Under the pieces are notes generated by a model. That model did not search any database. It saw only the letters and a list, made by a program, of their open reading frames with translations, and was not told the DNA's origin. From contig MU625092.1 in NCBI GenBank assembly GCA_025349905.2, forward strand, positions 1-12,016: DNA of 12,016 nt, given 5' to 3'. Position numbers and translations under genes: made by a program. Origin of the DNA: Blastocladiella britannica. Taxonomy: Eukaryota > Blastocladiomycota > Blastocladiomycetes > Blastocladiales > Blastocladiaceae. This document shows, piece by piece, positions 3,194-11,585 of the stretch. The number at the start of each line of letters is the position of its first letter. The first letter of the stretch is position 1.

Positions 3194-4037
3194 ATGTCCG
3201 CCATTCAGCACATTGACCGTGATCGCCTCTACACCGACATTGTGTACCGGTTCCAGTACGTGGCGTCGTTCATTGGGTTTGGTGCCGCCGACCAAAAGGC
3301 GATCCACGACTCTGTCTCGCATGTGGCCCCGCTGGTGCCCGTGGTGGTGGATGCGGTGTACGACAAGCTGTTTTCGTACGACATCACCAAGGCGTCGTTT
3401 GCCCACCGCATGGAAGGGTTCAGCGGCAAGTCGGTCGAGGACACCGACGCATTGACGCTCAAGGCCGACCAGATCAAGTTCCGCAAGGAGCACTTGGCAA
3501 AGTACCTGGTCAAGATTGTGACGGGCGAGTACAACGAGGCCATGATCAAGTACCTCGACTGGGTGGCTCTGGTGTGCTTATTCTTTTTTTTTTTGTTTTA
3601 ATGCATTTCCATGCCAGACAGCAGAAACTCACACACACCCAAAACAATAACAGATCCACACCGACAACAACTCCAAGACGTCGTCCATCAACGTGGAGCT
3701 GATCCACATCAACGCGCTGATGGGCTTTGTCGAGCACGTGCTGTTGGGTGCCATTTCGGACCTGCCCCTGGACGCGGCCACCAAGAAGGCCACGCTCATT
3801 GCCTACTCCAAGCTGCTGTGGGTCCAGAACGATTTTTTCATCCACTACTACGCGGCCGACGGGCTCGAGCTCGCCAACGCCAGCGCCAACGTCAAGGGCG
3901 TGCATCACAAGACGTCAGCGGCCGCGCGTGCCTTTGGTGCTGCTGGTGCGTCCGAGGCCAAGTCGTTTGCGGCCGGTCTGCTGATTGGCGGCGGTCTGGC
4001 CGCCATTGCCGCCAAGGCGCTGTCGCACATGTTCTGA
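3194..4037 (+). CDS. Protoglobin-domain (globin-sensor) protein
   Basis: Two exons, 3194..3571 and 3654..4037, encode 253 residues. I recognise the fungal protoglobin family: IDRDRLYTDI near the N-terminus, VYDKLFSYDIT, the YLDWVAL-IHTD junction, ELIHINALMGFVEHVLLGAI and LLWVQNDFFIHYY. Protoglobins are all-helical haem proteins that bind O2, CO or NO; the role of the fungal members is not established. H128, second codon of exon 2, aligns with the probable proximal (F8) His of fungal relatives. The globin part ends near residue 210. It is followed by an Ala/Ser linker and a hydrophobic Gly/Ala-rich C-terminal segment (SFAAGLLIGGGLAAIAAKAL), possibly a tail anchor or amphipathic helix. The start ATG is the first in frame and sits behind an A/C-rich leader. 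It converges on the aldehyde dehydrogenase gene, 79 bp between stops. There is no transducer domain, so this is a single-domain globin rather than a globin-coupled sensor. Haem binding is inferred. Confidence 0.87.
3572..3653 (+). other. Intron in protoglobin gene
   Basis: Donor GTGTGC at 3572, acceptor ending AATAACAG at 3653, 82 bp, phase 0. It has a T-rich early part and an A/C-rich 3' end. Removal joins ...YLDWVAL to IHTDNN..., matching family spacing and placing the candidate haem-ligand His one codon after the junction. Confidence 0.8.
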
Positions 4038-4116: not shown

Positions 4117-5769
4117 TCAAATCTTTGAAAACGTGAACCACTTGGCCAACCCAATGTACTTTTCGCCCACGGGCGAGTACCGCACGGTGTTGATGGCCTC
4201 CATCCCCATGGGCTTGATCAGCGTCGCGCGGTGGTGCGAGAAGGTGTCAAACCCGTACTTGCCGTGGTACATGCCCATCCCAGACGGGCCCACGCCGCCA
4301 AACGGCAGCCCGGAGGTGATGATCTGCATCATGGTGTCGTTGACCACCACGCCGCCCGACTGCGTGTGCGCCAAGAGCCACTGGTCGGCGGCCGGCGCGC
4401 GCGAAAAGATGTACATGGCCAGCGGGTGGTCGCGCCGGTTGATCACGGCGGCAGCGGCGCGCATGAACGCGTCGCCGCCAGGAACACCTGACTCGTCCTC
4501 GGTACCGGCCGGTGCAGCCGCCACGTCGATGGGAATGATGGGCAAGATCGGACCAAAGATCTCGTCCTGCATGATGGGCGCGTCGCGGCCCACGTCCGCC
4601 ACGACCGTCGGCGGAATGTACTTGGTGGCGCGGTCCCATGCGGCGGGGTCCCCAACCACCATGCGTCCGTGGGTTGTGTTGCCAGGACCAAACGACGGCA
4701 GGTACGCCGCCAGCCGGTCAAAGTGCCGCTCATTCACGATCCGGCCATAGTCGCGCGAAGCCTTCGGGTCCGCGCCGTAGAACTCGCCAATGGCAATCTG
4801 CAGCTCGCGCAGCAGCGGCTCCTGCTGCTCGCGGGACACCAGCACGTAGTCAGGCGCAACGCACGTCTGGCCGGCGTTCATGTACTTGCCAAACGCGATG
4901 CGACGGGCCGCCACCCGCAGGTCGGCCGACGGGTGCACGATCACGGGCGATTTCCCGCCCAGCTCCAGCGTCACGGGTGTCAGGTGCGCAGCCGCGGCCC
5001 GCATCACGATCCGGCCCACGGCGCCGTTGCCCGTGTAGAAAATGTGGTCGTAGTGTTGCTTGAGCAGCTCGGTGGCCACTTGCACGCCGCCATTCACCAC
5101 ACGGAAGAAGCGTTGGTCCAAGTACCGCGGGACCAGATCGGCAATCAGCTGGGCGGTGTGGATGGAGATTTCGGACGGCTTTTTATATTTTGGTTTTGAG
5201 TACAATTGTCCAGTTCTTCAGTGCAGCATGAAAAATATATATACCTTGATGATGACGGCATTTCCGGCCGCAATGGCCGCGACCACGGGAGCGAGGGTGA
5301 GCAAAAGCGGGTAGTTCCAGGCGCCCATGACTAGCACCACGCCAAGCGGCTCCTTGCGCACCATCACGCTGTCGGCGAGATTGACCAGCCCCCGGCGCGG
5401 AGCATCGGGCTGCGCCCAGGCGTCCATGTTGTGCACTGCCTCGGCCACGTCGTTCTGCAGGTTGGCGATTTCGGTCATGATGCCTTGTAAGCGCGCCTTG
5501 TGCAGATCGCGCACCAGGGCCGCCGCCAGCACGTCCTCGTTCTCGCTGAGCATGCGAGCGAGCGCACGCAACTGCAGCTTGCGGAACTCGATCCTGTGCA
5601 GCGCGCGGGTGGTGGCCCACGACCGACGAACGCTGGTCACGGTGTCGGCCAGCTCCGGTAAGGGTGTCTCGACGAGGGCGGTGGGCACCGCGAAGTCGGC
5701 GGCGTTCCAGGTCTTGCCGGTGGCGGCATTGACCACCTTGGGGTCTTGCGCGGCGGGGTACTTGGTCAT
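4117..5769 (-). CDS. Fatty-aldehyde dehydrogenase, ALDH3 class
   Basis: Two exons on the minus strand, 5769..5245 and 5178..4117, give 528 residues. ALDH3 enzymes oxidise long-chain and aromatic aldehydes to acids with NAD(P)+, often at ER or mitochondrial membranes (fungal Hfd1, mammalian ALDH3A2). The catalytic set is present: N152 in MGAWNYP, E247 in LELGGKSP and nucleophile C281 in NAGQTC. Also seen are FYTGNGAVG (cofactor-site region), QDEIFGPILPI, LPFGGVGPSGMG and YHGKYGFDTFSHHR, the last typical of class 3. Compared with ordinary ALDH3 there is an extra Ala/Gly/Glu-rich loop after PILPIIPID (plus strand about 4475-4535). No clear C-terminal membrane helix follows; the protein ends KWFTFSKI. 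The ATG at 5769 is the first in frame. The gene is head-to-head with the ethylene-receptor-like kinase (212 bp apart), so shared regulation is possible. Substrate is not determinable. Confidence 0.93.
5179..5244 (-). other. Intron in ALDH3 gene
   Basis: Minus-strand donor GTATAT starting at 5244, acceptor AG at 5180-5179 preceded by A-rich sequence (ATATAAAAAG), 66 bp, phase 0. Splicing joins GNAVIIK to PSEISIHTA, the uninterrupted NAVIIKPSE typical of aldehyde dehydrogenases. Confidence 0.9.
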
Positions 5770-5981: not shown

Positions 5982-8900
5982 ATGACCTCAGCACCGCCGC
6001 CTTCCTCATACAGCCCGACCCGCCTCTTTCTCGAGCCTTCCAACGACGCCCATCTCGTGGGAATGGTCGCCGATGCCGCTATTGCCTTCGCCTACGTGGC
6101 CATTCCTTGGTACATGTTATTATTTTCCTCATGTTGTTGCCATTGGCAAACACTCACTCTCCACCATTGGACACTGTAGCACCCTCTTCTACTTTGCCCG
6201 TCGGCTGCGCTTGAGTCTGACTTCGGCCCGCTACCACATGGTCGTTCTTCTCTTTATTTCATTCATTACGCTCTGGTCCGTATTTCTTTTTGCTTGTTGC
6301 TTGATCACACTGAAGTAACCACCATCTCCCCATACAGCGGCATCACACACTTTTGCCACGTCCTGGTTCACGACGAGCACCTGATCATGGTGTTTTTCAA
6401 AGTGCTCACGTACGTCACTCTTGCATTGTATTTTATTTTTCTTCCCAGAGAAAATCTCACGATCACAATTTTGTTCTATTTTTAGCGCCGTTGTCTCAGT
6501 CATGACCGCCATCGTCATGTCGCATCTTATCCCCAGCGCACTTCAGCTCCCTTCCCGGTTCTCGGCGCTCGAGGAAGAGCTCGGGCTGCGTATTGACGGC
6601 GAGCTGCTCCTTCGGCTCGAAAACACCAACTTGCAAAAGCTCCGGGCCATCACCCAAGCCGTCCGCCAGCCGCTGGCGCACCAGCGGATCTGCGAGGTTG
6701 CGTGCGAGCAGCTTGCTCAAAACTTCAGCTTGCGGAGCGCTCTTGCCCTTTCCCTCGACTTGAACCGATCCGGCCTGGCCATGTGCATTGCCGCCGAAAA
6801 CGGGCTTGGGGCGCCCACGGCACCACGGGTGCCTATTCCCGTCGGAACCCAGTTGAAGCTCGGCCCGTACATGATCACAAACCTCCACGCATCGTCCTTT
6901 GCCGCTTCGACCGCGACCGCAAGCACCAGTGATCTGCCGCAGCTCGACGAAAGGAACTGCTTGTCGATTGTTCCCCGCCGGCTTCGGGCCATTTTGGGCA
7001 CACAAGTCCCACCTGACATGTTCGGCACCCTCATTTTCTTGCGCAAGGAGCCGCATCGCCCCGATGTTTGCTGCAGTGCGAATGCACACGAATACACGTC
7101 TGAACTTGTGCACGAACAAGATCTCGCGCTGTTGCTGCTTCACAGCCAAGATGCGCTGATCCACGATCGCGCCGTCTTGGGCGACGCGGTTGGCCAGGTC
7201 GAAATGGCGCTCGCACAGTCGATGCAATTCGATCGCGATGCGGCGCACCGCGCACAGGTCAGTATCCTGGAACGCGAGAAGCGCGAGGCCGAGGAGCTCA
7301 GCGGCGTCAAGACGGCGTTCCTGGCCACCATTTCGCACGAGCTGCGGACGCCCTTGAATGCCATCAGTGCGTTAATATTCATTCCTTTCAAATCTCATAT
7401 TTTTGTTTTGGCTTACAAATCTGAGACACTACCACAGTTGGACTCGTCGACTTGCTCCTCTCTCAGGAAGCGTTGGCCCCAAGCATCCGCGAGATTTTGC
7501 AGGTCGTATCGGCGTCGTCCAATCTGTTGCTGACTCTTGTCAACGACATTCTCGACTTTTCCAAACTCGAGTTCCATGGCACCTCCTTTGCTCTCGACAT
7601 GGCACCCATCTCGTTGACCGATGTGGTGGAGCAGACGGTGGCATTGGTGTACCCGAGCGCGACCAACAAGGGCGTCATTGTCACCGCGATCCTCGAGCAC
7701 GAGACCGACCACGTGCTGGGCGACAAGCTTCGCTGCCGCCAAATCATCACCAACATCCTCTCCAACGCCATCAAATTCACCTGTGGGGGCTGGGTCACGC
7801 TCACCATCACGTCCACACCGCCAAGCTCGCTTTACGTGGACGGCGATCCAATGTGTGGCCGCACGCTTCGGCGCCTTGATTTCACAAAACAAGCCAACTT
7901 GGAGGAGGAGGAGGACCCCGAAGGAAAACCAGAGTGCGTCTACTTCCAAGTGCGCGACACGGGGATTGGGATCGTGCAAGACAAGCTCCCTCTGCTGTTT
8001 GAAAAGTTTCAGCAACTCGACTCGTCCATCACGCGCCGGTTCCAGGGTACGGGTCTTGGGCTGGCCATTGTCTCGCGCCTGGTGGAGCTGCACCACGGTA
8101 GCATCACAGTCGACTCGATTCCCAATGTGGGCTCCCTATTCACCATCACTCTGACGTTTCCGCGCATCACCAGGCCACCGTCGCCGACCAGGTCGTTGGT
8201 GGCAGAGCGCCTGGTCGGAGTCCATGTTGGCGTGGCGTTATTTGAAGGCGATGCGCAACGGGCGGTCATGGCACTGCTCCACCCTTACCAGTGCGTTCGC
8301 GTGGAACTGGCGCACCAAACCCCAACGGACCTGGACGTGGTGTTGATTAACGGGGATGTGCTCGTGACGCTTTCGGTACCGCAGCAAATGCAGCTGGCGT
8401 GCTCGATTTCGCCAGCGCCAGCGGTGATAATCTTTCAGCACTCACCGGACCAAGACGTGCAAAGGGCGCTGACGGATCGGTTCAGCACCGGCGCCTGCGT
8501 GCTGTTCCTGACGCAGTTTGTCCAGAAAGCCGAGCTCGAGGCGGCGTTGCGGAGGGCGCTCATGCAGTCGTCGTCGGCCAGTCCAGGGTCTGACCAGGTG
8601 CCGAGCATCCTGTCTTTGTTGCCGTCAATCGAGGAGCCAAAACCGTTGCCCGAATCGCCGACGCTGGCTCTACCGCCCGCCACCAGGGCGCGCGCGGTCC
8701 CACAATTACGCCTGGAGCCGACTCCCGCGCTAACATTCGCTCCCCGGCCGGTCAAGACCATTGATGACGTTCGAATTTTGTTGGTGGACGACAATCCGGT
8801 CAATCTGACGGTTGCGCACAAGACCCTGGCGTTGATTGGGTACACGCATATCGACGAGGCGACCAATGGCTTGGAAGCGGTCGCATTTGTCGAGGCGCAT

Positions 8901-9250
8901 CCCGATGTGGCCGTGTGCTTGATGGATGTGAGTATGCCGCTCATGGACGGGCTCGACGGTACGCCATTCATATTTTCTGGTTGTGTATTATATTGACCAT
9001 TCGAGTTATAGCAACCCGCGCGATCCTGGGAAATGCGGCACGGCAAGGACGAGGACATCTCAACGGACTGCCGTACATTAGCGCCATGACCGCGTCGGCG
9101 TTTGTGGAGGAGAGGACCACGTGCTTTGCGGCCGGAATGCACGATTTTGTCGCCAAGCCCGCTCGTCGCCAAGACTTGGAGGCGGTCATGTCCCGCTATA
9201 GAGTGTGGCGACAGGGCCAGTTGTTAATGCAAGATTCGTTGGAGGAGTGA
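5982..9250 (+). CDS. Ethylene-receptor-like hybrid histidine kinase
   Basis: Six exons (5982..6109, 6180..6275, 6338..6409, 6486..7366, 7438..8958, 9012..9250) give 978 residues. Residues 23-115 match the plant/cyanobacterial ethylene-binding domain: D31 and ADAAIAFAYVAIP in helix 1, then LCGITHF with C75 and H79, equivalent to the Cu(I) ligands C65 and H69 of ETR1, then KVLTAVVS and SHLIPSAL. A GAF domain (about 163-342) and a short coiled coil follow. HisKA has H383 in FLATISHELRTPLNAI. HATPase has N box N498/N502, G1 D566-G568-G570, F box LLFEKF and G2 GTGLGL (596-601). A degenerate receiver-like segment (651-769) and a Pro/Ser linker come next. The true receiver has D843/D844, phospho-acceptor D889 and K948. 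All phosphorelay residues are present. The N-terminal Cys pair linking ETR1 dimers is absent, and the helix 1-2 loop is four residues longer. It is probably membrane-bound and probably signals through an HPt protein; ethylene as ligand is inferred. Confidence 0.95.
6110..6179 (+). other. Kinase intron 1
   Basis: Donor GTACAT at 6110, acceptor CTGTAG at 6179, 70 bp, phase 2. It splits Cys codon 43 as TG|C. Splicing restores AIPCTLFYFARR, colinear with ETR1 helix 1 and the following loop. Confidence 0.9.
6276..6337 (+). other. Kinase intron 2, splitting the copper-ligand Cys codon
   Basis: Donor GTCCGT at 6276, acceptor CATACAG at 6337, 62 bp, phase 2. The codon of C75 is divided TG|C. A donor five bases downstream (GTATTT) would shift the frame and destroy the motif, so the GTCCGT site is chosen. 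Splicing yields ITLCGITHF. Confidence 0.92.
6410..6485 (+). other. Kinase intron 3
   Basis: Donor GTACGT at 6410, acceptor TTTTTAG at 6485, 76 bp, phase 2. Splicing gives FFKVLTAVVSVMTA, matching the start of helix 3 of ethylene receptors. Confidence 0.92.
7367..7437 (+). other. Kinase intron 4 (HisKA domain)
   Basis: Donor GTGCGT at 7367, acceptor CCACAG at 7437, 71 bp, phase 1. It lies just downstream of the phospho-acceptor His and restores LRTPLNAIIGLVDLL. Confidence 0.94.
8959..9011 (+). other. Kinase intron 5 (receiver domain)
   Basis: Donor GTACGC at 8959, acceptor GTTATAG at 9011, 53 bp, phase 1; the shortest intron of the window. Splicing restores MPLMDGLDATRAIL, the canonical receiver sequence after the phospho-acceptor Asp, and continues to K948. 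Confidence 0.93.
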
Positions 9251-10260: not shown

Positions 10261-10308
10261 TTCACATGTGTTCATTGAGCAGCCGTGTGCCTTCCGCTCA
10301 CCTCCGCT

Positions 10309-11585
10309 ATGCTTACAAGATTCAGAAAATTACAACAAATGAAATCGCACTTTTACTTGGCTCTATGGGCGGCGTTTACCTTGCTGGCCTCGGCCGGCCC
10401 GCTCCAGTGCTTTGACAATAACAAGCTTTGTTACCAGGCATCGCGCACGTCGGCCACTGCCTCCACCGCCGACCTCATGGTTTCGACCACCCTCGAGCAG
10501 GGCTGGATTGGTGTTGGGTTCGTATTCTCAAAAGTGTCAGCTCAGTTCGCGTTTGGCTGACATGAGCAAAAATCAATCAAAAAAATTCAAGATTTGGACG
10601 AGGAATGCGCGATGCCGACATTCTCATGCTGTGGCGCAATGAAGTCTCGGGCGAATGGATCCTGTCGCGACGGCTGTCCACCAAGTCGGGTCTCCCGCCA
10701 GCGGCACCAGTGCAAAACGCAGTGATAGTCAATTCCACCACGTCCGCCAACAGCCAGGGGTTCTACAACGTTCTGGTGCGGCGGCCGATCGCCGCATCAT
10801 CGACCACGACCGCGGGCGACACGGCGCTGACGGGCAGTGCCCAAGAAATGTCGTGGGCCGCGTACGCGGGCCCGACGACCGCCACCAACCTGCAGCAGCA
10901 CGACGCGCAAGGATCGTTCACGTACAATTCGCTCGACACGACGACGTTGGTGACGTGGGACGCGACCGGAAACGGGTACCCGACGGGCGGGTCGTCCGAG
11001 TCGGTGCGGCCCACTGCGTTGCTGGTGCACGCGGTGTGCATGGGCCTGACCTGGTCGGTGCTGAGTTTCACCAGCTCGTTCACGGCCCGGTACCTCAAGC
11101 ACCGGATCGGCGCCGCGTGGTTCGTGGTCCACCGGGGGATGGCCGTGGCGATCCTGGTGCTGACGGTCGCCGGGTTTGCGCTGGTCGTCGGCACCAACGG
11201 CGGCGAGTACTTTGCGTCGCTGCACGCGCTGATTGGGTTGGGCGTGGTTCTGGCCATGTTTGTGCAGATCGGGCTCGGAATCTACATTGACAAGATGTTC
11301 GACCCGAACCGCAAGTCCGTTCCGATGCACGACAAGGTCCACTGGTGGTTCGGGTACACGTTGCTGGCGGCGGGGGCCCTCAATGTGCTGCTGGGCCACT
11401 ACAAGTATGGGTCGAGCAAGGCATGGATCTATGCCAACGTTGCTGTGGTTGCGGCCGCGGTGGTGGCGTTTGTGGTTGGCGAGAGCAAGCTCGGGCAGAG
11501 CCATGACCATCACGAGGTGTTGCACGAGGAGAATACGGGGGCGTCGTCATCGTCGGCGACGGGACCTGGTGTGGAAATGTCGTAA
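10309..11585 (+). CDS. DOMON plus cytochrome b561 transmembrane haem protein
   Basis: Exons 10309..10517 and 10592..11585 give 400 residues; a second in-frame ATG at 10339 would give 390 and directly begins a signal peptide (MKSHFYLALWAAFTLLASA). After cleavage comes a DOMON domain with GWIGVGFGRGMRDADILMLW at the splice junction. QQHDAQGSF (His codon 10899-10901) resembles the haem-ligand His region of cellobiose-dehydrogenase-type cytochromes. Then come about five hydrophobic helices forming a b561 core. The four His expected to bind two b haems appear in LLVHAV, FVVHRG, ASLHAL and DKVHWW. The tail is His/Ser-rich and cytosolic. Such proteins move electrons across plasma or vesicle membranes, for example from ascorbate-type donors to ferric iron; the donor and acceptor here are unknown. 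It ends 37 bp from the stop of the convergent Gtr1 gene. Family assignment is firm; function is inferred. Confidence 0.92.
10518..10591 (+). other. Intron in DOMON-b561 gene
   Basis: Donor GTTCGT at 10518, possible branch site CTGAC near 10557, acceptor TTCAAG at 10591 after an A-rich stretch, 74 bp, phase 2. Splicing restores GWIGVGFGRGMRDADIL. Other donor/acceptor pairs tried break either the frame or the DOMON signature. Confidence 0.88.

Follow-up and report, generated by a model that had tools for sequence, protein, structure and literature searches.

Gene content of the window

The window, by which we mean the whole 12,016-base stretch of Blastocladiella britannica DNA analysed here, contains a receptor gene together with the following neighbours:

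2-2698, + strand: SET2-like histone methyltransferase gene, open at the window edge
about 3194-4037, + strand: Protoglobin gene, two exons
4117-5769, - strand: aldehyde dehydrogenase gene
10566-11585, + strand: gene for a cytochrome b561 domain protein

The SET2-like gene encodes AWS and SET domains that score over the cut-off, and SRI and Med26 domains that fall below it. Protoglobin belongs to a family found mainly in bacteria and archaea. The aldehyde dehydrogenase and receptor genes are divergent, their start codons lying ~210 bases apart, and the cytochrome b561 gene perhaps has an upstream exon at 10291-10560, a segment without a Pfam match.

The receptor gene is laid out as follows, all on the + strand:

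5982-6109: exon 1, N-terminus and first hydrophobic helix; D31 codon at 6072-6074
6180-6275: exon 2, second hydrophobic helix, ending with the bases TG of the C75 codon
6276-6337: intron 2, 62 nt, splitting the C75 codon as TG/C
6338-6409: exon 3, beginning with the C of the C75 codon; H79 codon at 6348-6350, K96 codon at 6399-6401
6486-7366: exon 4, end of the third helix, a linker in the GAF position (predicted GAF unconfirmed), a coiled coil (by eye) and the start of HisKA with H383, codon 7336-7338
7438-8958: exon 5, rest of HisKA, HATPase_c (7719-8159), a stretch without a Pfam match and the start of the receiver with D889, codon 8925-8927
9012-9250: exon 6, end of the receiver with K948, codon 9155-9157, and the stop codon
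6063-6549: ethylene-binding domain (ETR1_N, residues 28-120), interrupted by introns 1-3

Joined in silico, the six exons spanning 5982-9250 give a single frame of 978 residues plus a stop codon, and introns 1-5 (70, 62, 76, 71 and 53 nt) are all bounded by GT..AG. A preliminary description of this DNA had proposed five introns and six exons, which the joined frame bears out, and had named D31, C75 and H79, which lie at exactly those positions of the joined protein. The C75 codon is assembled across intron 2, with TG at 6274-6275 and C at 6338; five nearby donor/acceptor pairs keep the frame there, and CGITH is retained by the chosen pair only. At introns 1, 3, 4 and 5, the frame is kept by 4, 11, 9 and 10 pairs, respectively (the chosen pair counted), so these junctions rest on homology and not on frame alone. 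An intron matching intron 2 in both position and phase recurs in the gene models of three paralogues, on contigs C301, C55 and C177, which supports the window gene model at the level of genomic sequence.

Domain architecture of the predicted protein

ETR1_N was matched by Pfam at residues 28-120 with 70.9 bits against a cut-off of 27 (E 1.1e-19), followed, in this order, by HisKA (374-437), HATPase_c (487-633) and Response_reg (839-957). Hydropathy windows of 19 residues reveal three hydrophobic stretches within about 23-50, 54-86 and 83-120, and the kinase and receiver portions carry the motifs SHELRTP, NILSNAIKF, DTGIG, GTGLGL, LMDVSMP and AKPA. The earlier designation of the gene as an ethylene-receptor-type hybrid kinase thus agrees with the Pfam matches, and, judging by sequence, the window protein is likely to belong to the ethylene-receptor family as a hybrid histidine kinase bound to the membrane.

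The domain order put forward earlier had also included a GAF domain. Its HisKA, HATPase and receiver portion was recovered by Pfam, and its GAF portion found no confirmation by Pfam, blastp, hhalign or structure modelling. At E<=1, Pfam returned no GAF in the window protein or its three paralogues, whereas ETR1, submitted to the same comparison, gave a GAF of 50.4 bits. The window linker matched the GAF region of ETR1 weakly by blastp (E 0.13); the four linkers together aligned by hhalign with ETR1 over 38 columns (E 0.02, probability 2.35%) and with the GAF core alone over 14 columns (E 0.19). A single-sequence model of exon 4 had pLDDT <50 over the linker, and neither of the two structure models made, this one included (mean pLDDT 41.4 and 35.0), reached the quality needed for a fold search. 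From its position, the linker may be a diverged GAF domain.

Residues of the predicted binding site

Alignment places C75 and H79 of the window protein at the positions of ETR1 Cys65 and His69, and D31 and K96 at those of Asp25 and Lys91. All 12 positions checked against ETR1 are unchanged (D25, A31, Y32, I35, P36, I62, C65, G66, T68, H69, K91 and A102); of the ETR1 and ERS1 stretches used, 80 ETR1 residues are in agreement with PDB 4pl9. Several of these 12 positions affect ethylene binding in ETR1. The predicted copper-ligand motif, said from the outset to be intact, is therefore present with both C75 and H79. In ETR1, Cys4 and Cys6 form a disulfide pair, a feature of the plant members that is not treated here as required for the family; the window model has no counterpart of this N-terminal pair, its first Cys being residue 43.

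For comparison, 81 bacterial ORFs were collected from 80 loci, the best 80 of 176 confirmed. His occupies the ETR1 69 position in 81/81 and Asp the 25 position in 79/81; Lys is found at the Lys91 position in 55/81, and Thr at the Thr68 position in 44/81. Cys at the Cys65 position (81/81) is not independent evidence, as one of the two fetch patterns contains CG.

A family of receptor-type genes

The genome (15.26 Mb, 624 contigs) contains at least four receptor-type genes, found by searching it with the window's own N-terminal part, which matched four contigs; copies that have diverged further or are split into smaller pieces could escape such a search. In addition to the gene on C544 (the window), these are:

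C301, 13961-17709, + strand: 1131 residues, ETR1_N 72.8 bits
C177, 21210-17095, - strand: 1271 residues, ETR1_N 32.4 bits
C55, 41091-36676, - strand: 1243 or 1246 residues, ETR1_N 85.6 bits

Since the other three are broken up by introns, the ETR1_N model alone picks out a single gene in the genome. For one intron of the C55 model, six acceptors were tried by eye: two were in frame, three led to stops and one was not found. Pfam covered residues 1-747 of C177, whose receiver was identified visually and from its alignment with the other members. A HisKA search of the genome gave 14 matches on 11 contigs, and an exon-by-exon search for the CHASE domain, in which a split domain could be missed, gave 0 matches at E<=0.001. 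A second histidine kinase group, with the phosphoacceptor box AHELRNPLYV or VHELRNPLYV, was seen on C167, C149, C310, C508 and C465 (loci L091, L095, L084, L094 and L096, respectively).

Beyond what the preliminary description had observed, the window gene thus has three paralogues, and one gene of the four is without both ligands. Both are kept, despite the divergence of the binding domains from that of the window, in C301 (CGVTH), which has Arg at the Lys91 position and a domain 54% identical, and in C55 (CCGFTH), whose domain is 43% identical. In C177 the motif reads SGIVS, with Ser at both ligand positions; its Asp and Lys are kept, and Trp is found at the Ile62 position.

Divergence of the ligand-less paralogue

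C177 and C301 share 78% identity in the kinase and 32% in the sensor; between the window and C301, identity is 51% (sensor) and 63% (kinase). With the window as the reference, unique changes in C177 versus C301 number 27 versus 8 in the sensor (p 0.0019) and 46 versus 17 in the linker (p 0.00034), compared with 13 versus 13 in the kinase (p 1) and 11 versus 4 in the receiver (p 0.12). Setting sensor against kinase directly gives a Fisher p of 0.033, for one contrast in one genome. A constraint that still acts on the kinase seems to have been lifted from the sensor and linker of C177. The role of this protein is probably either ethylene-independent signalling or modulation of other members through pairing. 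C177 represents a natural built-in control, in which loss of the Cys and His is accompanied by rapid change in the sensor and not in the kinase.

Genome context and descent of the binding domain

The chitin synthase 2 model gave 37 matches in the genome, a count that includes exon pieces and distant glycosyltransferases, with a best score of 604 bits; since 4/14 prokaryote controls also match this model, the weaker matches are not specific. A model search for light-harvesting proteins returned no match in the genome. The strong chitin synthase matches and the lack of a light-harvesting match support a fungus-like genome, as had been claimed. The two best of 13 EF-1 alpha model matches we take to be eRF3 and an EF-like protein.

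A phylogeny was built from 85 rows (3 fungal, 2 plant and 80 bacterial) and 101 columns, leaving out C177 and a Bacillus row (L050) as long branches. The three fungal domains were grouped at 99/87, and fungal plus plant domains were split from the 80 bacterial ones at 99/98; the bootstrap of this tree was unsettled and its columns were few. An alternative tree joining C55 with plants was not rejected (p-AU 0.389). In a quick tree that included C177 and L050, the 81 bacterial rows stood apart at 94, and C177 joined C301 at 68. A phylogeny, as suggested at the outset, delivers the split from bacteria; with one fungus and two plant rows, it would fit transfer as well as a shared origin in eukaryotes. 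The window linker found no match in the bacterial ORF set at E<=0.01.

Stand-alone ETR1_N proteins in viral contigs

Viral sequences were scanned as well, and a scan that used just the N-terminal sequence from the window yielded no relative. Stand-alone ETR1_N proteins and adjoining genes were observed in IMG/VR contigs as follows:

L116:2917-3282, + strand: stand-alone ETR1_N, 71.2 bits, CGLSH; the same protein occurs on the contig of L115
L116:77-2440: phage tail protein gene adjoining the ETR1_N gene
L117:2812-3468, + strand: stand-alone ETR1_N, 74.0 bits, CGVGH
L117:2385-2756: DUF1353/tail-assembly-chaperone-like ORF adjoining the ETR1_N gene

By eye, the L116 protein has His at the ETR1 Asp25 position, and it had no match among 50,697 phage records. 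A further scan brought the contigs carrying a stand-alone ETR1_N to four in all.

Proposed mechanism and alternative explanations

The best reading of the window gene, to which we give a probability of roughly 0.7, is a copper-loaded three-helix sensor of ethylene (or a small olefin) feeding a His-Asp relay. In a dimer, the three hydrophobic helices would form a pocket, with C75 and H79 holding Cu(I) and with D31 and K96 close to it. Loaded with copper, this pocket may bind ethylene or another small olefin, and binding would change autophosphorylation at H383. From there the phosphoryl group could reach D889, within the receiver of the same protein, and next an HPt protein, for which a candidate is found on C87 (24.9 bits against a cut-off of 24.6, with GHFLKGSAAALG). 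Cu(I) would perhaps be supplied by a heavy-metal P-type ATPase on C140 (560.7 bits, with neighbours), whose copper specificity is putative.

The persistence of an ETR1_N fold match in C177, a protein of the same genome without the ligands, was counted against this reading, as were the unconfirmed GAF, the missing counterpart of the Cys4/Cys6 pair and the Arg at the Lys91 position in C301. A tentative and rather unlikely elaboration accommodates C177: three members would bind ethylene via copper, and C177, with its intact kinase, would act as an ethylene-blind partner setting the baseline of mixed complexes. Alternatively, the domain might bind copper and sense another cue, for example the copper level, the redox state, oxygen or a different small molecule, with ethylene not its natural ligand. 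The motif shows a copper site at most, the domain is present in many bacteria (176 confirmed loci), and the stand-alone proteins adjoin phage tail genes, where hormone sensing is unlikely; yet the window retains 12/12 of the ETR1 positions checked, several of which affect ethylene binding, and we regard this alternative as rather improbable.

Two further explanations question the identity of the gene itself. Plant or algal contamination gains some ground from the window being all of C544, so that its linkage to the remaining genome is not direct, but sister genes sharing introns lie on three other contigs, chitin synthase matches reach 604 bits with no light-harvesting match, and the tree places the fungal copies on a different branch from the two plant rows, leaving this explanation very improbable. 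It is barely credible that chance or membrane composition makes the three-helix N-terminus of an ordinary fungal hybrid kinase look like ETR1_N here: hydrophobic domains can in general yield weak false matches, but here 70.9 bits extend across nearly the whole domain with polar residues conserved, three paralogues have the same architecture and shared introns, and the 12/12 ETR1 positions and the tree also speak against it.

Comparison with known ethylene receptors

The proposed copper-loaded sensor and Arabidopsis ETR1 and ERS1 all carry an ETR1_N domain in which the Cu(I)-ligand and pocket residues agree, and the order of HisKA, HATPase and receiver is that of ETR1. It differs from ETR1 in sequence, with a domain identity of about 39%, and from both plant proteins in having introns inside the binding domain and ~200 residues without a Pfam match between HATPase and receiver, and in being without a confirmed GAF and a Cys4/Cys6 counterpart. 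With cyanobacterial and other bacterial ETR1_N sensors it has in common the ETR1_N domain and the His at the H69 position, but it lies on the opposite side of the tree from them. If fungi use such receptors, ethylene sensing would not be limited to plants and cyanobacteria, and could serve to detect plants, algae or the fungus's own ethylene. Ethylene-receptor homologues in early-diverging fungi, which the preliminary description also took as known, are already in print: a 2017 mBio paper reportedly described phytohormone-receptor homologues in these fungi, including hybrid kinases said to have an ethylene-receptor-like N-terminus. On that basis, the window gene is a further member of a kind already known.
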